Shown here one piece after another: positions 9,964 through 25,871 of a stretch of DNA of 26,692 bases (the first letter of the stretch is position 1; each line of letters opens with the position of its first letter). The notes beneath the pieces were generated by a model. It was given only the letters and a program-made list of their open reading frames with translations, was not told the DNA's origin and made no database searches. Origin of the DNA: Saccoglossus kowalevskii (Eukaryota > Hemichordata > Enteropneusta > Harrimaniidae); assembly GCF_000003605.2 (NCBI RefSeq), contig NW_003119426.1:427859-454550 (forward strand). Reading direction: 5' to 3'. Position numbers and translations under genes: made by a program.

Positions 9964-12900
9964 ATGCCGGAGAGTAAGTATACGTTTATTTAGTTATGTA
10001 CCGAGTGCAATTTACGGGTGAAATAATGCTATATAAAAGATAATTACTGTTTAGTGTCACGGAAAGTAGAAATTGCCGAGCCCTCTCTGTCGTTTCGCAT
10101 TTTCAAGTGCAGAGTTGTGTAATTTTCAACGATAGAGTCGTTAGTGTGGACCTTCGCGGACTACCACTATGTGACAGACACACCAACCTTACTGCCACTG
10201 GAAAATCGTTTTTTTTTCGATGTGACAAGGATATTCGGTGGTCTTTCTACAATCAAAATTTGTTCTCGTCACATTCACAGTGGAGGGTTCAATGTGGAGT
10301 TAGCCCCTGCGNNNNNNNNNNNNNNNNNNNNNNNNNNNNNNNNNNNNNNNNNNNNNNNNNNNNNNNNNNNNNNNNNNNNNNNNNNNNNNNNNNNNNNNNN
10401 NNNNNNNNNNNNNNNNNNNNNNNNNNNNNNNNNNNNNNNNNNNNNNNNNNNNNNNNNNNNNNNNNNNNNNNNNNNNNNNNNNNNNNNNNNNNNNNNNNNN
10501 NNNNNNNNNNNNNNNNNNNNNNNNNNACTGGTTTCCGATTTATTTAGTATTAGTTGTAACGCTGACAATGTAATTATTGATATTTTCACAGAAGGAGATG
10601 AACCATTTTCCAACCCCCTGCCTCCACCAAATAGGAGGATATCCTATGAGGAGATGGATGCATCCGGGTAAGTATTGATTATCAAAGTCTATTTATTATT
10701 TATCTGAATTGTATCTAGGTATAGTGAAAATAAGTTTATTTTTTTGAATTGTGAACAGGGATCAAAATTGAAAGTATCCGAATACAAACCATTCTTGTTC
10801 ACGGCTACATGTACACTGTACTATTTTCAAAATTTTGAAGCTCAGCTGAACTAACTTGTTTTTACTTTTTTCCTGAAATATATTTACAATGAAATATTGC
10901 ATTTGTATTTTTGTTGTTGACACGACGTGTTTGTTTTGTACATGGCTACAAGTACCAATACACCTAATAACATTCTAATATGGTAGCCCAGTCAGTCGAA
11001 TACATGTATGAATATTATTTAATTTTGAGCCTAAAGTGAATCATCGTACATCAATTAAGTTTACCGAGTGTCTTTCGACCTCCAGGCTTCATATTTTCAT
11101 GTATTGATGTCTGGTTATCACTAATATTAACCATCTTTTGTTTGTTCAGCCATGTATAATAAAGCCTAGTGGTAGTAAAAAAATAAAATTACCAACATTT
11201 TTTTCCCCTTCACATTCTGTATATACATTTTGCATACGGAGAAATGTATTATATTACCATCTTCGTGAAATTCCCTATAGTGTCTACATGCTGATTAGTC
11301 CATCAATTATTGTTTTAAATAAAATGTATGCAGACTTTTGAAGTGTTTCCTGACATATACATTTGTATATTCATGTGTTTGAATAGCAAAATTTCAAGAT
11401 AAAATATTGTGCACAAATGTACATGAATAGATACCTTTATAGGTACCTTTATAGTTCAATGTATAACAGTCATACACATTTTCTTTTCAGAAGATTTGTG
11501 TCCTCACCAACGATAATTAATATAGAATTGAAGCTATACACACATGTATTTGTAGTGTTGATATGTATGATTCATATGTCTATCATACATATGAATGACA
11601 TAGCCATGTTATACAACATTCAATCTATTTTCTGTTAATTGTAGATCACAGACGTTGACAAATGAAGACTTTCGTAAACTTCTGATGACTCCGAGGTCAG
11701 CACCGAAAGAGGCTCCTCCAACAGCTATGGCAAGAAACAAACAGCCGTATGTATATCAATATATCGTACTAACCATGGCACACCTGCAGCATAATTAAAA
11801 ACAGTCATTTGTTTAATTCACTTGATTTGACTTCTTTATTATTGCAGGGTTCTCCCCAGAAAAAATGCATAGCGTCGCGGCTAATTTGCATAATAATTTG
11901 CATATCATTTACATATCCTTCCTTCATTGATTAACAGAACTTATTTACAATTATGAATATTAGTGAGCTCAGTCATAGTGCAATTATTTTTTTTAATGGA
12001 ATCAACACATTATGTTTCACAATTTAGAAGAGTTTGAAACATTCTCGAAATACAAATGCTGCAGCCTAAAAACAAACACAAATAAATTATTGTTGCAATT
12101 TAATTGTATTGTAAAACGTTGAGTGAAACGCATTCAAAACGTTAAGCCAGATTTATGTTCACGAATCTCATAATTTTATTCACTCCAAAAAGATTCTCCT
12201 TCAAAAAATCGATCATGTAATTAATTGGCGTATTGTTGTAATTTATTATTCATATCATCAACTTCTAAAACGTTTACAATTACAGTAATGAGCGAACAAA
12301 TAAAGCTTAAAAAACGATCATCAAAGTTACGACGTGACATAACTTACTTGGTCATGTTATACACCAGTTATAGCAATAATTCCTCAAAAAATGTTACTTC
12401 TTTTTTTTTAGCTCCGCTGTCGACTTTTTTTATAGCATCATTATCACAGTTATTGGCCTAGACTGAGGCTGACATAAGAAACTATGAGGCTAATAAGACC
12501 CTTGGTGGACAATAACTGATCGGCTGAAGTGAAAGCCAATATCTTTTTAGCTCCGCTGTCGACTTTGTCGAGCGGAGCTTATCATATGAGTGATTGTCCG
12601 TCGTCCGTGTCAATGTTTTACTTTTTCGACTTCTTCTTGAAAACTACAAGCCTGAATGCTTTGATACTTGGTGTATATGTACCTTGGGTAGACCTCTCTT
12701 AGGTTTGTTCATTTCATGTTGATATCTTCAATTCTCTAATTTTGGTGAATATTTTTGTCATTTTTGGTAAAAAGTGATATTTTCGACTTCTTGTTAAAAA
12801 CCGCAAGTCCAATTGATTTGATATTACATATATAGGTACTACATGTGGACCTCTCTCAGATTTGTTCATTTTGTGATGATATTTTCAATTCTCTAATTTT

Positions 12901-13875
12901 GGTAAATATTTTTGTAATTTTTGTTAAAAAAAAACTGACCCGCCATGATGTTTGTGAAACATTAGCATGTGTCCTTTGACCCAATGGGTCAAGAATGCCA
13001 TTAACCAATAAAAATACCGTTTGGTAATGTCGGTAGAATCCAAAGTTTTCCGGTAGTGATCAAAAACATTACATTGCGGAAGTAAAGCGATGTCGTAGCA
13101 CGATGTGTTGGCATCGTTTTCAATTGAAAACTGCATGATGGCTTTCGGAAGAGGTGATTTGCAATTTTTAAAAGGTAAAATAGGTCTTGAAAGAACAGTT
13201 TTTACATGATTCGCAATGATAACAGTTCAAATGTTTTTTACCAAATCACGCAATAAACACGTTGTTTTTTTCGTGAGTAGCGTGAACTAATCGTGAACTC
13301 CGCTTTGAACATGTTATATCAAGGTGGAATTGATTTTGAAAGAATTTTAGCCTTCAATCTAAAGACTGACTATCGCAGAAAGTATTTACTTACAAACAGA
13401 GGTGCTAATTTCACAAATTAGGTCTATTGTTTACAAATTATAATCCACGACAGGCAGGATGCGTGTTGGTCGGTACGTAATTATGATAACAATCAGACAA
13501 TAGTCCTGGTCGGAAGTGTTTCTGTGGTAGTCACTAATTTTGAGTGACCAAACAAAGCTTTTGCACATGTGATATTGGCATGTCAAATATGAAATTAAGC
13601 ACCGAGGTGGGAACACATAGCGCCGAGGTCCCAAGTAAAGCGCCGAGATTCACAAGTATAGCGCCGCGGACCTCGGCGCTAAAAAGCCCTGGGGAGAACC
13701 CTGTTATTGTGATGTTTGTATACCGGTACATGAGAAGTCTGCCTAAGTTGACAAGAGTTTTGATCACTCATTAATGTTCATGATGTAATTAACATGTATG
13801 TTGTATCTATCACAGAATGCCTGTTGAGTATGAAGAAAGTGATGATAAAGGGGCTTTGAGAAGAAAGAAAAAAAG
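9964..13875 (+). CDS. IK: IK exons 1-4: N-terminal tail of RED (residues 1 to about 82)
   Basis: Exon 1 codes for only MPE plus one base, and GTAAGT follows at 9974. Exon 2 gives GDEPFSNPLPPPNRR. Exon 3 carries LTNEDFRKLLMTPRSAP, the conserved N-terminal motif. Exon 4 gives MPVEYEESDDKGALRRKKK, acidic then basic, matching the human order. Junction phases are 1, 2, 2 and 2. Intron 1 contains the assembly gap and intron 3 contains the large transposon. Confidence 0.92.
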
Positions 13876-16800
13876 GTGAGTACGCCTCATTTTGTTTTTT
13901 GGTGTTGTTATGTATAAGTGTGTAGTTTTATATTTAAATTTGCTTATTTTTTTTTCAAATTATTATAGCTACTATGCGAAAATCAAGAAGGAGGAACTTG
14001 AGAGGCAAGCTGAACTTGCTAAGAAATACAGAGATAGGGTAAGTTGATAAATACATGCCATGCCTGTTATTTACACCTAGTCTCAATAAGAGCTTCAATG
14101 GCTGCTGTGTGGCCTCACAGGTGTTCGTACTTTTGTTTTTGATGTGTATATATCAGGAATTTAAATTTAAATAGAGGAACATGGTCTCCAAATATTCTGA
14201 AAAAAGCTGGTTGTCGTCTTTCACTTAAACCTGTATAGTGTTTGGGTCAGCAGTCATGTTAAAATCTGGCTCAAAATAATTTAAAATTTTGTTTTCAGCG
14301 AAATTGTAGATACTTTGTTAATACTATCTTGGGTTGAAGTGATCGTGGAATTTCTGTATTTGTGTTTCATAGTTGTTCCAATGGACAACCAGTTTCTATA
14401 TTTGGGTTCCCCACGACAAAGTTAATTGTTGTAGGCAACGTGATAACTGCTAATTTCAACGGCAACCCCATTGTGAGGTACGCGATGGTAGAGATGAAAA
14501 CCTTTATTCAATATTCACAGTCTGTTGGTTGTCATTTTATTAAATCTCCAATTGAGGTCAAGGATAATGTGACTAGCTTTATTATTACACTTGATAGGCC
14601 AGAGAAAGGCGTGATGGTGTGAACAAGGATTACGAAGAAACGGAAATGATTAGTACAACTGCAAACTACAAAGCAGTTGCCCCAGATGTACAATCGTGAG
14701 TACTTTGAACTCTTGCTGCACCACTTGATAATATGCATTGAGACTCATGTACATGTACAGTGTGTCATCTAACAGAACTGATTTTGTATGGATTTTGAGT
14801 CAAAATGGAATCCCCAGAATAATTTAAAGTTACCTTGTTTGACTGCTTGGAAGAGAGATCTATAAGAAAAAAAAATTAGTATGACTGTTGGTGATTCCAG
14901 ATAGTGCAACAAAAATGTTGGTGGCCTCTGATTATGTTTTCACACATATTTTGTTTAAAAAATACATGTATGAATTCTCATTTACCAAATTTCAAATTCC
15001 CAACTGTAGTTAGATATTTTTTCAGGTCACTTTTTCAATGTAGGATTCCCTATTGAGTTAATGACATGTCTGGCAATGAGCATAACTAATTCCCTCACCA
15101 AAATTCTCTACACCAGTGATGCAACATATTGACTTAGAGGGCGCACTCTTAACGTGTCATGTAGTCTATACATCTTGCACTTTCTTTATGATGGTTTAAT
15201 TCTGCTATTGGGTGAAGTGATGATATGAGAAAAATTATTCCTGCCAGCCCCCCCCCCCCCCCCCATGGTTGTGGACACAGACTCCTGTATTTTTCTGTGA
15301 CATTGATCATGAAAGCCGTTCACTGAATTTCAGAGTGACTATCATACCATACAAACAAAAGCCGCTGATGGTTACTAGTTACTGGGGTACCTCCAACATT
15401 GATTGTGTATTTTTTTCTCAACATGGTTGGAATGTAGATCAGATAAAATTAGTTTTGTAGATAGATTTATGTCTAATAGAATTTTGGTGGTCATCATTAT
15501 CTGACATACTTGATCATGTTGCTTGATATTGTAGAAGCATTCATTTTCTCTATTTCTATATTTGAACTTATTTTACGAATCACATGTGGATTTAAATTAG
15601 AAGATGAAATGAAAACAGAGTGAATAATTATGCTTACAGTAGCACATTGATTCATTAATTAAACCAATGTTTAAAATTTCATTGTCATTGACCACATAAA
15701 AATGTTACGATTTGGGTGACTACAGGACACATCAATACTAGTTTGACTCAACTAAACTTTTGCAACTAAATGCTAGAATTGCCAATCATGGGAAATCAAT
15801 TAGTGGTATTGTACCATGCATGCGATAGACAGTGTAAGAAACAGTTGGAAGTACAATGTAGGAGTTAATCATGTGGCTGGTGTGGCCTTGGCTGTTTAAC
15901 TTGCTTTTTGGAACATCATATGTATTATTATCTTCTTAGTGGTGACACAGCTGCTATCAGACGTCGTCAGGTGATTGAAGAATCCAAATACCTTGGTGGT
16001 GATATGGAACATACTCATTTGGTGAAAGGGTTGGATTATGCATTGCTGCAGAAGGTAAGAATTCGATTTAATTGAGCACAATAGATTTCAGTAATAATCT
16101 TGGTGATGATATTATGCATATTTTTTTCTGTGCTATTGAAACCAAAGTCTTTCTGTGTGTATGTTCGCCACACGAACTTTTTAGATCGCCTTTCATTTTC
16201 TACAGACTATTTAACCCTTACACCCCCAGTTCCCTCTTTTCATCACAAATTCAAAAATGCTCCTGTTTATAGTCTGTACTTTCCTTCATAAGATTGGGAC
16301 AACAATAGTAAAAAATTTTGAGTAAAAACATAAAATGACTCAATATTGTCTAATGGCTCAGAAAATTAGGGTTCATTTCCAGAAATATTTAAGGATATTA
16401 AAAAAAAAGTGCAGAACAATTTGGGCAAGAAATTCTGGTGGTGAAAAGGTTAAATATGTCATTGATATGCAAATTAAATGCAAATTAGATCTCACAGCAT
16501 ATTAGTAGACTAGTGTAGATTATATTATTAATAGTGTAGAGATCACTGTATGGCATTAGTACTATGTATTTTATTATGTGTTTAGGTAAGAGCTGAGATC
16601 ACTACTAAAGAGAAAGAAGAGGATGAACTGGAGCATGTGTTTAAGCAGAAGAAAGATGTGTAAGTACACTATGTATCATTGTCTGTCCATTCGCCCGTCT
16701 GTTGTATCTGGCTAAGGATGTTTTAGAACATTATCTAATGCAGGCACGAATGCTGATTTATATACAGTCAGGTTGAATTTCAGGTGTATAATGTTATTTA

Positions 16801-19800
16801 TGATATTCTAATATTTAAATATTGTTTATTTAGGGAGAAAGAGGAGGATGAGAAAATACAGTTTAGGACTAAACTTGGTGAGTTTACCAAAGATGTGACT
16901 GTTATTTTCAGCGTGGCTGGAACCTCACATACCAACATATCACTGAGACATTTAACATGCAGTTAAACCTGTGTATAGTAATCACCAATTGTAGACGGAT
17001 GGTCCTTATCTGGAGGGTTGATTATTTTTATGGATTGCCAACTCATACTATTTCACATATTTGTCCAGAAAATAATGAACTGTCGAAACAAAAACACATT
17101 TATTTGAGTTGAAAAGCATTTATAATATGCTTGATTAGAGGAAATTAAAAATTGTTTTAAAAAAATTAAAATGCTACATATTGTTTTGGTCGCTGAACTA
17201 AAACATATCTGCATAACTATGGCTTAAACTTGAAATGGCGGTCACATAAAATACATGTAAATGGTCGTTATACACAGGTTGGCTTATATGCAGGTGGTCC
17301 CTAACACAGGTTTGAATGTATTTGTAAATGTTACTTTTATCTCGTACTATTTAACAAGTTGTCTCTTTCTTAAAAAGCTGTACGTGTTAATGGCATCTCC
17401 ATTATAACAACCTTGCAAAATGTCTATTGTAATTATCAAACCACCAGCTTTAATAGTAAAACATGTTACAATCTCATATGGCAAAATGATGGACTGTGTG
17501 TTTTGTATATTTTTCTCAGTAATCAAAGTCTTTACATTTACAGGAAAAAGCGTCTTTCGCACATTATTTCGTTCGAGGCAGCATGAACGTAATGAATTAT
17601 TTTGGCCTGGACGTATGGCATATGTTGTTGACCTTGAGGATGAGTACCTAGAAAGTGACATCCCAACAACATTAATCAGAAGCAAAGCTGATCTACCAAA
17701 TCTAGAGGTAAGATAATAGCATGGTTTTTTTCCTCCTGCAAATTTATACTGTAAATGCATTTCAATATTTGGTCTATTGCTCTACACAAAAGTCCAAATT
17801 GCATTTATCTTATGCTAGATAATTGAAATATGTCTTATAGACTATTGATACAATGCTGTCATTAATATGTGATTTTAATGTGAGCAAACATGGTAATTAT
17901 TCACTGCATTTAAATGTTGGTATTTTGGCTGATAAGAGAATTTGCTAAATTGAATTCCTGAGAACATGTGAAATTAAAGCACAACGTATTATTTCACTGA
18001 AAATAAGAACTAGTAAATATGATCAAAATATTAAATTAAATACCAGTGTTTTATCTCATTTTTCAGTTGTCTTAATAAAGTAGAGTTATAGATAGGGTCA
18101 CGGTGGCGTTTGACACTATGGGTAGTTGTATTTCCTGGGATTAAAAAAATTGCTATTCGAACAACTAAATATATTCATTATAGACAAGTGTGCTTAAATG
18201 CCCTGTGGGGGTGTTTTTTTCCACTGATTGCTATATACATTTGTACATATAAGAAGTAGTAGATTACAAAAAGTTTTTCAGCTCCCCATTAATAAGTTAT
18301 CGAAACTGACTTTACTCTCTTTGTTGCTCATAGAATTTGCACATTTTCTTTCTGATCTCTTTCACAAAGATATACATATACATATTGTTTGTCTTCAACA
18401 TGCAAGTTTATCACAAAACAATATGAAATTATGCAGAACTACTAATGTGTACGTGAATTTGTAATGATAATTTTTCTTGTAGTCGCATACTACATTGACA
18501 ACCAACGATATCGTTATCAACAAGCTGACGCAGATTCTATCATACTTGAGACAAGGTGCTAGAACTAGTAAAAAACTAAAGAAGAGAGACAAAGCAGGTA
18601 TGTGATGCATATATTCTACTGTATGTGGGACAGTCATCACTGAAATATGTGGGCTTGTGGTGGAAATATTACAGGAAATATCGAGTTTAAGTTTACATGT
18701 AATTGCTTGAAGGTTTAGATAAAACAATTTGTTGATGCAATGCATTGTTTTAAAGTTATTGCAAATTTGCTTGCTAATTCCCCAAGCTTACTTTTTGAAA
18801 AAAGTACAATAACTTAATATCCATAAAATTGTCTTACACTATACTAAATCATATAATGAAGAATATATCTACAAAACAAATTCTCTAAAATAATATTTCC
18901 TAGAAGTTGAGTAAGTGGTCAAAAATATATATATATATATAGCCGAAAATGTAATAAGCTTGCCCAAACATTTAGGAATTCAACTATTGAGCATAAGTTT
19001 GACTACTACATCCTTATTTGGTCAATGAACAAAACTATTATTGTGTATCTTGTTTTTATCAACAAGGTAGCAGTTACTTTGTACCAGTATATTGAAGGAT
19101 TATTAGAATATCAGAAACCATATTTCATGAGTGGAGTGGACATGTATTTCATAGTATAATAATTAAGAAGTGTATTTATTTTGTAGGCAAAGATAAAGAA
19201 GAGAGGCGTGAAAAGCTGACTGGTGGTGAGGAGAAGTAAGTGCTAAATAAATGTAATAAAAAAAATTGTTGTTAATATTTTAATCACCAGTATTTCACAT
19301 CATAGTTGAACTAGAAAATTTTTATTTGTAACATGGTTGGGTTATCTGTTCAAAATGGGCGAATTATAACGTAATAAACTTAGACATTTTGTTCTATTTA
19401 TTAATTTTAACCAAACTCAATTATATGTCAACTTTTCTTTCTGAATTTACAGCGATGCTAAAAATAACTCAGCGATGAGGCTGATAAAATTGACGTAAAA
19501 TAGTCACCTGGAATTCATGCTTTGTGATATGTGACCTCAAAACTTTTTATTGTATGCAATCTCTAACTATAGTTATGTTGTAGCTTGTTAACTTTTGAAA
19601 GGAATACTTCATACAAGGTAGTTTTACTTTTCAGTATATTCGGTGACATCGGTGACTACATGCCCACAGTGAAGCCTGGTTCCTCAAGGGAGAAAGGTCG
19701 AGATAGGGACAGAGATTATAAAAAGACAAAAAGTTATTTTGAAAAGCCCAAAGATGAAGAGGTATGTTGAGTTTCCAGCAAATATTTAATTACATACACT

Positions 19801-22800
19801 GTATATATCTAGCTGATGTTAACATTAACCTGTTAACATTAGCATTTTACAAACATGCAAGGGTTAAAAATCCACATCACTGATGAATACATAAAAATTA
19901 TGACTTTTATCACGTATGCGTTTATTTGGAATTGTCAAAGCAGGATGAATATATTTTAGAATATTTATGCGCTGTGTAACATAGGTGGAACACATCATGG
20001 TCAGCGAGAGGACTACCGAATAACATGCATATTATTTGTGTGTTTTTTAGCATGAAGATGACAGACATGGTAAATCTACGAAAGATTTTGTGAAAGATAT
20101 TCATGACAGATTTGGGAAGGTAAGAGAGAGTTATTTATGACGTCAATACTTATATGAAAGTGTAGAAAAAGGATAAGGTTCTTATTGTAGAAGAATAGGC
20201 ATTTCATTCTGCAGATTTTAAACATATTTACCATTATCATTCGCAATAATGATATTTATAATAACTATTTCATTACATCACGTATATCAGCTCGATACAT
20301 GTCCTGTTTACTGCCACGTATTGCATTTAGCAGTGCATCCCATAAAATAACATTTGTTTGTTGTCTAAATGTTAACTGTGTATACGTCACAGAAAAACTG
20401 AATACCATATTGTCCATTAATCGTACAAATAATATTATTTTTCTTCCAATAGTCTAAAGAAACTGATGCCCGTTTAGCTGCTGGATGGGCTCCTGCGGAT
20501 CTCAAATATCCTTTCAGTTTTTTGTGCATTTACATATATGTAATGCTGTATATATCAGGAGAAATATTCACTGGGTTTATTAGCAGATTCCATGTTTCTA
20601 AGATATTCAGTATTTATTACATTCAATGAATTGTGAAGGAACCATGCACTTTACTATTATTACATTTAACAATAGAAAACAATTGAATATGTGCATGTAA
20701 AAAGCCTTTCGAATCGACCCTCTTTAATGAGCATGAGCATATAAGCATATTATGTGTGTTTATCTTTTATCAGTCCATAGTGTATATACTAGTATGTCCT
20801 ATCACTTGGGACAAAGTAAGAAAAGCTGCTTTGTTGGTTCCTTAACTTTTTGGTACATTAGAACAAGAAGCTGGGAAAGGCAATCAAAAACCATCAAGTA
20901 AGGAGGATAAAGATCGAGGGTAGGTTCTCATTAACTTGTGTACTGGACAGTGTTCACCTTGTCTGTGTTGTAGTTTAACAAGTCTGATTACCTAAATCAG
21001 CAGTTGTCATACCAATTTGTGTTGGTTAGTATGCAACGCATGTAAAATTTATTGTTAACTTAAAATACAACTTTATGATGTCATATTTTATGTGACCAGA
21101 ATTGTTGTGGAACATAATTATGTTTTGGTTACGAGTTGTCCAAACATTCTTTCATGCTCATCAAGCGATATATGACAAAACCAAAATCCACTTTTAGGCA
21201 TGGTTCTGGGTACAGGCGAGATGAATCACGTGGTAAGCAGGGCAAGAGACGAGATAAAGATATGTTTGTGCCAGATAGTTATGCTGAATGTTACCCAGGG
21301 TAAGACAATACTCTTTTAAAGCTGCATTACCAGATATATTTTGTTTGTCAAATCTGATTATGTATGTGCCATATACCAAATGCAACAATTACAGTATTCA
21401 CAAGATATCTGGGTCACAAAGTGTTTGCAAACAGCCGTACATCACCAAGCATTTATGTAGACTCGGCTATGATACAATTTTCAGCAGCTGAGGGCATCAA
21501 CAAGTCCACTGAATTGTACACGAAACTGGCGGCTGTTTAATGTGGCCTATCATTAATCCAAGTTTGTCGAGAAGAAAGAAAGTTGAGGGATTTGTTTAAA
21601 CATTTGTTTTGTTATGAGATTTCATAGCATTTATTGCCACTTTGTCCAAGCGAACATGGAACATTTCAGACTTCCTAGGCTAGTTGTGTTCAGCGTCTTG
21701 CAAAGCAGGATACACCATGCATGTCAGTATTTTAGGTATTCCAAATAAAAAAAAAAATCGGTTAGGTCTTAACATGCATAACTCACATACACTGCTGTAA
21801 CTGTTGCTTTCAAGTCATGGCTTCAAGCATCAAAATTGTCAAACTAAATGCCAGTGAAAATAAATGGTTTAACAGTATTTAGTTGTTTGAATGCCAATTT
21901 TACTTGTCCATACACATATGTACTATAAAACTACCCCCATAGTGTTTAACCCTGCCTTCTGTAATTTGGCAACTTTGATATGTCATACGAATTGTGATGA
22001 TACCACAGGGACTACACATGATGAACACTAGCAAGGATGATGTCATTCACAATATGACTTGTTTCAGTTTAACTTAACAATGACTTGATATTGTGTTTGT
22101 ATTGACAGAGCTATTGAAACAGAAGATGCTACATATGACAGTGATGATGAACCAGACTACAGTAAAATGGATTTAGTAAGTCATTGTTTTATTCATGGAA
22201 ATAGTTTATCTGCTACCAATAAAGAATCTTGAATACCAGTACGACTACGAGCACATTTTATATGTGTCCATGCATTGTTGTAAAATACCTTGACATTCAT
22301 GTCACTCAAATATAGCTGATGCTATTATTAAAGATGCAATATGGATGAAAACATGTATTTAGTATTATTGTGTTTCAACACTTTTATACTGTAGACTAAA
22401 TCAGACTTATTATTTAAAATACAATGTAAACTAAAAACATCTTATTTTCAGAACACCTAACACTATTCATTAGATGAGAAATCAAAACCACTAATACGCA
22501 CAAGCAGTATTGTACATACCAAAATAACCACTGTAAATGCGTATCAAGGAATTTCATAGTTACATCAAAGGAATACTGTCATGTGCTACATAAACAGCGT
22601 TTTCAGTTCATGAAAAATCATAGTCTAGTGTACCTGTCAGTATATACTAGTCTATTCCGTATTACGTCCTCCAGACATAATAAAGGTCATGCATATTTAG
22701 GTTATAATTGTTTGTTTGTAAGTTGAAAGTAAAACAACTCTACTTTTAATATGGGCTTTCAGTAAGGTGCATTTTGTATGTGTTGACCCTAGAAGTTATG

Positions 22801-25800
22801 TGATCATCACCAAATTCTATTGACACTGAGAATGGTTTTACTTGATTCACAGGGTAATAAGAAGGGTCCTGTTGGACGATGGGATTTTGATACACAAGAA
22901 GAGTACAGTGATTACATGAATAATAAGGAGGCACTGCCAAAGTAAGTAACTATGGCAACCATACAGAATAATCTAGAATTTATAGTAAAATTAAGGACGT
23001 TTGGGCTGCATTGAAGACTATATGCCATGTTTATCATACTTTCATTGTTGTGGGTTTATGCCACCAGGATACTAAAAATGAAAACAATAACATTTTTGAA
23101 ATACAATAATCCATACAATACAATAATGTCAAAGAAATTAATTAAACTGGCATTTTTGCACTGGTTTCTCTGGTGAAATTATTTTGTTATATCTCAAAAT
23201 TTGGCACGGTGACATGGTATAAAAAGTCATGATATTATTATGGACACGAGTCCTAATATTATCTAGCATTTTTAACAAATTGAAATACAATTTAAAGAGT
23301 TTCTAGGGAGATAATAGTGTACCCATTCTCTCCCATAATGCACTGCATACATGGGCAGTAACGTACTCAGTAGTGAACACTTTGAATTTGACCCAAGCAG
23401 CCTTGAATATCTCTTGATCGAAACAACAGTTGAATAATGAAGACCAGGTGATGTTCAGAAAATAAAATAATTTGAATAAAATTTGCATTCCCATTTATCT
23501 CTATTATTTATTACATATTATATATTATACATGTATACTCATATTCAGAGCTGCTTTCCAGTTTGGAGTTAAGATGTCAGAGGGCCGTAAAACTAGAAGA
23601 GCAGGGTTTGGTGAGAAGAATGAAAAAGCAGAATTGAACAGGGAGTGGCAAAAGATCAGCAATGTGAGTTTCATCTATATTTTAATTACACTTGCTTTTC
23701 ATTGGTTCAGTAAAGTTATTCACACACAAATCAAAGATCATAAGTCAAAATCCAATTGATAATCCATACCAGTTTTCATGCGATTGATAAATTAACTTGT
23801 GAACAAAAATGTGTGAAGCAGCAGTTTGACAACACATCTGTAAATTGGAAATAAGTAAGAACATGTTTGATTGTTTGGAATAAATTGAATGAAATTGTCC
23901 CAAGTAGAGAAAAATGTAAAACACTAAACATGCAATCATGTTCCATTGTTTTGAAGCCAGACTTATAATTTGTTGAATACACAATACACATAATTATCAT
24001 AACAATAAACACGATAGACTAACACACTTTATTGTTATGCAAATTAATTAATGACATGTGGTTTTCATATACTGATAAATTGTTGAAATGAAGTCTACTT
24101 TTTATTTTGTGCTAAAATCATTTAGCATACATATACAAAATATATTTGTGTACACATTGTGCATTTTTTTTCTGATATAAAATCAGTATATTTGATCTTA
24201 GCATAATTTTTAATCGAAGGTATAAATTCACTGTACCACACAATTTTGTATGCGTCATTGAGACATCATTCTGATCCATAGCATGGCCGCAGTTCATCTC
24301 AAAGCTCCAACAAGCAGCATGTTGTTCTTATCAGCTGCTAGTGAATATTAAGACAGATTTCAATACTTAATATGTGCATCTTTGATTAAATATACTTGTC
24401 CATCATTTTATATAATTTGGCAAAAGTCAAAAACACTGCAAAATGTATTAAAACAGTGTGATGACATTGCATATGATAGACTAGCAATAGTATCCAATGT
24501 GGGATTGTGAAAAGGTGAATATGATCTTTAAATTTATCATTATTCTCTTTTCTAGATTATTGCAAAACGAAAAGCCAGTGAATTAAAGTAAGTTTCACTT
24601 ATTCCATTTAGTTAACATTATTTTATTCCATTGTACAACAGGTAAACAATAACAATCAAGGTGGGGGGTCTGTTTTTGTAGATGTGATGTCATCTAAGTC
24701 ATTGATAACCCACAAAAAGAACATCATCTTGTATCCTACAGGTGTACATCACATATATATGATTCTTTTGTTTTTTGTATTAAACATTTATTACAGTACT
24801 GTAAAATGACTAATTTTCACTGGGTTTAAATTTCACTGATTTACCATTTCAGGCATATTCAGTGGGTTTAAATTCACGGTTTCGTCATTTAGATAATGTG
24901 TTCTATGCTAAATTTTACATATTCACTGTGTTTTAATTTAGCGCATTTTTCCAGTCAGCGAAATAAGCTATAATTAAAACCCAGTGAATAATTACCCCTT
25001 TTACAGTAATTGTTTGTGTGTTTTTTAACGACAAATCTGATGATGTCCTTCTTAATGTAATTCATTTACAATGACTCTCCATATCATTAGGCCTTAGAGA
25101 GTAATTGATGTATAGTAAGTGCAATAATATATATGGTCACTAATAGAATGTTTATAGGTGCCAATCTGAATGTTTGGTCTGATGTAATTCTTTGTGCCAA
25201 ATTAATACTAAAAAATCCATTTAATTTGTTTGGGCTCAGTTACATAAAAAAAACATCTTGTTGGTGACTTAGGTGAAAGTTGATGGATAATAATATTATT
25301 GATACTCTGTGACTTTTACTCAATATACTGTATAAATTTTAGTTTCAGTATGGTTTGTTTTTATAAACAACTGTCAAATAAGCATAAAATAGCAATTTAA
25401 CAGTGGTTTCCATAGAATTCAATGAATTTTTCATTAAAAGCCCACTAAAATAATTGCAATTTGTTTATTCATTTGTTTAATCATGAACAAATACTTTGTA
25501 CATCTGAGAGACTGTAAATAATTTGTTTGGACTAAATGATAACTGACCAAAATTTTTAGATATTTCATACAAAACAATGGTAAAATGTCTCAAAACGTGC
25601 TATTTTCACTCTAATTTGTACTTAGATTTTCACCAAAGTTAATCCAGTAACCTCATATTTTTATTTATTTTTTTACACATCTCACATATATGACATACTT
25701 TTACTATTGAGTAATATTCTATTTTTAAGAGGACTGCTTCAATTTATATTCAGCAGTTAATTTACATGGAAGGTACTTCATAAATTTCAGATTCTGAATG

Positions 25801-25871
25801 CAATTTTTAATGATTATTCTTCGTAATTCTTGTATTTTAGGGGTGAACATGTTAAAGTACCAAGATACTAG
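9964..25871 (+). CDS. IK: Protein RED (IK), spliceosomal B-complex factor; complete 22-exon gene
   Basis: The exons are 9964-9973, 10592-10667, 11645-11746, 13816-13875, 13969-14038, 14598-14695, 15940-16054, 16586-16659, 16834-16877, 17544-17707, 18483-18597, 19187-19235, 19635-19761, 20051-20119, 20453-20505, 20857-20919, 21198-21299, 22109-22175, 22853-22941, 23549-23663, 24556-24587 and 25841-25871. They total 1725 bases and give 574 residues (human RED is 557), with frame kept at every junction. RED pairs with SMU1 in the precatalytic (B) spliceosome; a mitotic checkpoint role is also reported for the vertebrate protein. Diagnostic stretches include LTNEDFRKLLMTPR (33-46), KKSYYAKIKKEEL, GGDMEHTHLVKGLDYALL, GRMAYVVDLEDEY, DIPTTLIRSKADLP, DSYAECYP and GRWDFDTQEEYSDYMNNKEA. 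The start is the MPE...EPFSNPL N-terminus shared with the human protein. All introns are GT-AG except intron 15, which looks like a U12 AT-AC intron. Confidence 0.95.
10312..10526. other. IK: Assembly gap (215 N) in IK intron 1
   Basis: An unbroken run of N between GCCCCTGCG and ACTGGTTTCC. It falls inside intron 1, so no coding sequence of IK need be missing. Its true length and content are unknown. Confidence 0.98.
12408..12436 (+). repeat. Partial second copy of the AGCTCCGCTGTCGAC head
   Basis: The words TTTAGCTCCGCTGTCGACTT occur here as well as at the start of the nested element at 12547. Here they are followed by a T tract instead of the second hairpin arm. It is a truncated or abortive copy 139 bases upstream. 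Confidence 0.6.
12545..12940 (+). mobile_element. Hairpin-headed element with two 157-bp tandem units, nested in the intron-3 transposon
   Basis: It opens with a hairpin (AGCTCCGCT 12549-12557 pairing with AGCGGAGCT 12571-12579) and a pyrimidine-rich TGTCCGTCGTCCGTGTC. Two tandem copies of a unit of about 157 bases follow: TTCGACTTCTT at 12625 and again at 12782, both continuing through GACCTCTCT, TTTGTTCATTT and TTCAATTCTCTAATTTTGGT. The build resembles the pearl/HINE (Helentron-associated) elements of marine invertebrates. That label is inference from architecture, not from sequence matching. Confidence 0.6.
13599..13680. repeat. Subterminal 20-21-bp tandem repeats near the transposon right end
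   Basis: Units starting GCACCGAGG (13599), GCGCCGAGG (13620), GCGCCGAGA (13640) and GCGCCGCGG (13661) are spaced 20-21 bases apart. The last forms a near-palindrome, GCGCCGCGGACCTCGGCGC. A related but degraded AGCGTCGCGGCT sits near the left end (11871-11882). Such repeats are usual transposase-binding sites in hAT-like elements. Confidence 0.7.
13969..18597 (+). CDS. IK: IK exons 5-11: conserved RED N-terminal domain (residues about 83-309)
   Basis: This is the most conserved half of the protein and corresponds to the RED_N domain. It runs from SYYAKIKKEELERQAEL (charged helix) through DYEETEMISTTANYKAV, ESKYLGGDMEHTHLVKG and an acidic K/E helix (exons 8-9) to ERNELFWPGRMAYVVD, SDIPTTLIRSKAD and TTNDIVINKLTQILSYLRQG. 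Exon junctions fall in phases 0, 2, 0, 2, 1, 0 and 1. Introns are 0.2-1.2 kb and contain nothing else I can name beyond simple repeats. Confidence 0.93.
15248..15264. repeat. C17 homopolymer in IK intron 6
   Basis: A run of 17 C between CTGCCAG and ATGGTT. Its length is likely to be unreliable in sequencing. Intron 6 (14696-15939) otherwise shows nothing recognisable. Confidence 0.85.
18925..18940. repeat. (AT)n microsatellite in IK intron 11
   Basis: A pure AT dinucleotide run. The rest of intron 11 (18598-19186) shows no other feature. Confidence 0.8.
19187..21299 (+). CDS. IK: IK exons 12-17: charged middle region with a short RD tract (residues about 310-463)
   Basis: NIFGDIGDYMP (exon 13) matches the human segment that precedes the long RE/RD dipeptide repeat which gives RED its name. 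Here that repeat is reduced to SREKGRDRDRDYKKTK before SYFEKPKDEE. Exons 14-15 give a divergent linker ending AAGWAPADLK. Exons 16-17 give a basic, lineage-variable stretch (SSKEDKDRG, RRDESRGKQGKRRDK) leading into the conserved PDSYAECYPG. Exons 15 and 16 are joined across the AT-AC intron. Confidence 0.9.
20506..20856 (+). other. IK: U12-type AT-AC intron (IK intron 15)
   Basis: The intron begins ATATCCTTTC at 20506, matching the U12 donor consensus. It contains TTCCTTAAC at 20838-20846, matching the U12 branch-site consensus, and ends GGTAC at 20856. The probable branch A (20845) is 11 bases from the 3' end, in the usual 10-15 range, and there is no polypyrimidine-AG acceptor of the normal kind. 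Joining CTCAA to ATTAGAACAA restores the frame as D-L-K-L-E-Q-E-A-G (phase 2). The intron is 351 bases. Confidence 0.9.
22109..25871 (+). CDS. IK: IK exons 18-22: RED C-terminal domain and stop (residues about 464-574)
   Basis: This corresponds to the RED_C domain: DSDDEPDYSKMD, then GNKKGPVGRWDFDTQEEY, MNNKEALPKAAFQFGVKM, SEGRKTRRAGFGEKNEKAEL and NREWQKISNIIAKRK. The protein ends EHVKVPRY, close to the human ending KRPKY. The last exon codes only ten residues before TAG at 25869-25871. The short exons 21 and 22 were fixed by frame and by the conserved ends. Confidence 0.92.
24799..25006. mobile_element. 208-bp MITE flanked by TA in IK intron 21
   Basis: The left end TA-CTGTAAAATGACTAATTT and the right end ATTACCCCTTTTACAG-TA are inverted copies, and the pairing runs on through TTCACTGGGTTT against AAACCCAGTGAA. 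Flanking TA dinucleotides (24797-24798 and 25007-25008) suggest a Tc1/mariner-like target site. The interior repeats TTCACTGGGTTTAAAT-like words three times. No coding capacity. Confidence 0.75.

Follow-up and report, generated by a model that had tools for sequence, protein, structure and literature searches.

A predicted U12-type AT-AC intron in the RED/IK gene of Saccoglossus kowalevskii

Introns of the U12 type with AT-AC termini have long been known, and their consensus letters read RTATCCTTT at the donor and TTCCTTAAC at the branch site. AT-AC introns make up ~26% of human minor introns (PMC10639083). For the U12 class as a whole, PMC3584512 gives 11-13 nt as the optimum distance from branch site to 3' end, and PMC7367187 describes a phase bias away from phase 0. 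AT-AC introns of the U2 type are also described: those of the sodium-channel genes all have G at position +5 (PMC2831892). Here we analysed a stretch of 26,692 bases from S. kowalevskii (the window; G+C 34.9%), in which a reading from the sequence alone had placed a U12-type AT-AC intron, and we searched the surrounding genome (572 Mb, 4830 contigs).

The exons of the host gene were placed by hand and, when joined, form a single open frame of 570 aa with a stop at its end, while the remaining 19 introns of the model are all GT-AG. The relevant features are as follows.

10592..25871, + strand: RED/IK coding region in the window, 21 exons and 20 introns, start codon not located
20453..20505, + strand: RED/IK exon upstream of the intron, from the open frame; number 15 on the assumption that an unseen exon lies ahead of the model
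20857..20919, + strand: RED/IK exon downstream of the intron, from the gene model; exon 16 by the same count

The predicted product carries RED_N (residues 76-303, 326.1 bits) and RED_C (residues 454-562, 173.3 bits) in Pfam, and a search of the PDB, with a query whose first five letters were filler, returned Protein Red at 594.5 bits, in a chain that we take to be human. On account of both domains and this match the host gene is, as judged from its conceptual translation, RED/IK, and the exons flanking the intron belong to it, as had been proposed. RED/IK is required for the activation of spliceosomal B complexes on short introns (PMC6692369). A run of N at 10312-10526, either an assembly gap or a withheld stretch, lies just 5' of the first RED/IK exon seen, and the start codon may sit within it or further upstream. 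Positions 19453-19494, in the interval from the exon end at 19235 to the next exon start at 19635, form a possible optional exon of 42 nt, a length divisible by three (acceptor 8.9, donor 2.7). Elsewhere in the window an open frame at 232-564 presumably resembles pyruvate dehydrogenase E1 alpha, and Rfam found no RNA families in the window.

The intron itself is made up of the following elements.

20506..20856, + strand: U12-type AT-AC intron of RED/IK predicted from motifs and frame, 351 bp, phase 2
20506..20514, + strand: 5' splice site ATATCCTTT, once in the window counting both strands, predicted 7-bp duplex with U6atac
20838..20846, + strand: putative branch site TTCCTTAAC with the A of 20845 or 20844 as branch point, once in the window
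20855..20856, + strand: 3' terminal AC, from the frame test with the donor at 20506

The borders and AT-AC ends lie exactly where the sequence-only reading had put them, the 3' end reading ...GGTAC with the final base of the AC at 20856. Its claim that donor and branch site fit the minor-spliceosome consensus also holds: ATATCCTTT shows zero mismatches to RTATCCTTT, the branch site shows none to its own consensus, and each is present in one copy in the 26,692 bases, both strands included. Counted from the A at 20845 the intron ends after 11 nt, the distance given earlier, and counted from 20844 after 12 nt; either value falls inside the 11-13 nt optimum of PMC3584512. AT-AC termini alone are no proof of U12 dependence (PMC2831892), and the intron might on that ground be a U2-type AT-AC intron (AT-AC type II). 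The probability of this is close to nil, because the base at +5 is C here and G in the sodium-channel introns of the same source; the exactness of both U12 motifs speaks against it as well.

In order to gauge chance occurrence of the motifs, 100 windows were simulated with a second-order Markov model, and donor and branch motifs in the right order and spacing were counted as pairs. The real window holds one exact pair on the + strand and none on the - strand, while exact pairs were seen in 0 of the 100 simulations. When one mismatch per motif was allowed, the counts in the real window were again one (+ strand) and zero (- strand), with at least one pair in 51/100 simulations. Near matches alone are therefore not significant, and the weight rests on the exact motifs and on their location at exon ends demanded by the frame. 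Part of the intron (20557-20667) resembles a dispersed repeat, found at 75-79% identity in at least five other places of the genome.

With the donor fixed at 20506, intron ends from 20845 to 20868 were tried, and the sole in-frame AC or AG is the AC at 20856. These AT-AC borders give an open frame in which the joined exons read CTCAA/ATTAGAACAAG (CTCAA/ATTAG), the junction falling in phase 2 within codon 405 of the 570-aa frame, which is consistent with the U12 bias away from phase 0 (PMC7367187). Protein similarity cannot choose between junctions, because the alignment to Protein Red omits query residues 394-434 and the junction with them.

GT-AG alternatives at the same place were scored with U2 donor and acceptor position matrices built from the other 19 introns of RED/IK. 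These 19 introns have donors of 5.9-12.6 and acceptors of 5.2-11.5, values that are flattered since the matrices were scored on their own source introns. On the same matrices the values are -8.8 for the AT donor at 20506 and 1.4 for the AC acceptor, the latter partly from the missing AG. As for a polypyrimidine tract, the branch site is followed by a short run of T. The unspliced frame hits a stop at ~20627, so that an in-frame donor must precede it, and the best GT before the stop scores -0.7 against the range of the real donors, in agreement with the earlier remark that exon 15 ends without a good GT donor. We found 22 GT-AG pairs that are in frame and open, all scoring far below the 19 real introns (12 of the 22 listed). 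It had been claimed that the frame is restored only by the AT-AC borders or by a weak nested pair; the weakness of the alternatives stands, while the restriction gives way to 22 open, in-frame GT-AG pairs. Nor is the pair nearest the AT-AC borders nested: at 20517-20861 (donor TCA/GTTTTT -5.6, acceptor 4.1) it is shifted, beginning 11 nt inside the AT-AC intron and finishing 5 nt beyond it, in frame (+6 nt), and its use would replace LE with YPFK. By summed score the top pair among the 12 of 22 listed is 20610-20861 (donor -0.9, acceptor 4.1).

A GT-AG intron removed by the major spliceosome, with borders shifted to 20517-20861 or 20610-20861 and ATATCCTTT present by chance, would keep the frame without a stop in both cases. 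However, its donors of -5.6 and -0.9 and its acceptor of 4.1 compare poorly with the real sites, and it offers no explanation for the exact U12 donor and branch site; we consider it extremely unlikely. Alternatively, AT-AC and GT-AG introns could share one place as a twintron, with both in use. Shifted U2/U12 pairs are known (PMC3564746), and the shifted pair in RED/IK keeps the frame, but its GT donor is far weaker than all 19 real donors, which leaves a twintron very unlikely. By score no usable U2-type pair is present at the intron, the two best in-frame GT-AG pairs among the 12 of 22 listed having donors of -0.9 and -5.6 where the real ones reach at least 5.9. Inside the intron, at 20774-20815, an acceptor TTTATCAG (7.9) and a donor AAA/GTAAGA (8.9), both fairly strong on the U2 matrices, flank 42 stop-free nt; this donor is one of three scoring at least 8.5 in 12,785 bases within RED/IK introns, and no in-frame use of the segment was seen when read by hand.

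Parts of the minor spliceosome were sought in the same genome. Two U6atac loci score 136.2 and 111.8 bits against a cut-off of 33, and one U4atac locus scores 67.0 bits against a cut-off of 53. PDCD7, which we take to be the U11/U12-59K protein, was found as three colinear pieces on one contig, covering profile positions 122-306 and each above the cut-off; one of them is interrupted by a TAA stop within its match, possibly where the alignment runs on into an intron. Between the U6atac of the host and the intron donor, 7 contiguous bp are predicted at -8.2 kcal/mol, the best value among the gene's 20 donors (next -4.2). The pairing fits without being unique, because RED/IK yields 124 ten-mers, out of 15,300 overlapping ones, whose duplex is equally strong or stronger. 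The two U6atac loci (L007:1501-1625 and L008:1501-1631) lie on different contigs with upstream sequences that look alike by eye, and the second breaks some of the pairs of the model.

No U12 was returned by an Rfam family search of the genome or by BLAST with the human sequence, and no U11 by the family search, empty answers that do not amount to absence. The two family searches scored just 44 of 18,940 and 40 of 36,006 candidates and gave no signal for either family in any of 14 control genomes. Two pattern searches, one of 34 bases allowing 3 mismatches and one of 17 bases allowing 1, also gave no U12, which does not show its absence; at the three loci picked up by the 17-base pattern, Rfam reported no U12 at E up to 1. 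A single match to zf-U11-48K (PF05253) was considered as U11-48K and rejected: it lies in a CHHC zinc-finger exon at L016:1456-1656 (- strand) that fits gametocyte-specific factor 1 (GTSF1) better, at 49.4 versus 16.2 bits, and because of this far closer resemblance it was not counted as a minor-spliceosome part. As a control, a second minor intron was looked for. The human PHB2 query brought up just prohibitin pieces at 47-54% identity, probably from a paralogue, and across the four loci from this query and the three PDCD7 loci (seven of 20 loci) no second minor intron was seen, with 0 matches to the branch pattern and 1 to the donor pattern.

Altogether, donor, branch site, spacing and termini, along with U6atac, U4atac and PDCD7 in the genome, support the U12-type reading put forward earlier. 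Judged by its motifs and frame, the segment is almost certainly a real U12-type AT-AC intron, in phase 2 within RED/IK, that the minor spliceosome would remove. We infer, by analogy with studied animals, how splicing would proceed in this one. The U11/U12 di-snRNP would recognise the donor ATATCCTTT together with the branch site TTCCTTAAC, and U6atac would then take the place of U11 at the donor. The branch-site A at 20845 or 20844 would attack the 5' splice site before 20506, and the exons would be joined as CTCAA/ATTAG to encode ...GWAPADL-K-LEQEAGKG..., a stretch of the linker that joins RED_N to RED_C.

Among the matches listed, no literature linked IK, RED or SMU1 to a minor intron; 'U12' and 'minor' are both absent from the main texts of PMC8015194 and PMC6692369, which deal with IK or RED, and RED/IK is absent from rows ~7-19 of the 19-row fly table of PMC2831892. 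It is plausible that standard gene predictors would miss this intron. The analysis offers likely correct borders for an intron that annotation limited to GT-AG would misplace, and it contributes an AT-AC example from the gene of a splicing factor; should orthologues share the intron, it would help to date the gain or loss of a minor intron in RED/IK. Since RED/IK is itself a spliceosome-activation factor, slow minor splicing of an old or conserved intron could, hypothetically, couple RED supply to minor-spliceosome activity and thereby cross-link both spliceosomes, an idea that we rate as unlikely.

Compared with described systems, the intron shares its AT-AC termini with the U2-type introns of the sodium-channel genes, although theirs have G at +5 (PMC2831892) and this one has C. 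Its likeness to the twintrons of prospero and ZRSR2 (PMC3564746) is a shifted in-frame GT-AG pair overlapping the AT-AC intron, but the scores of these GT-AG sites are too low for a credible second intron. With the animal U12-type AT-AC introns of PHB2, KCMF1 and syntaxin 6 (PMC2831892) it has the AT-AC termini in common; its motifs match the consensus, its spacing lies within the optimum of PMC3584512 and its neighbours are GT-AG introns. The sole difference is the host gene. The intron in RED/IK is an ordinary, well-formed member of its class and presents no new phenomenon.
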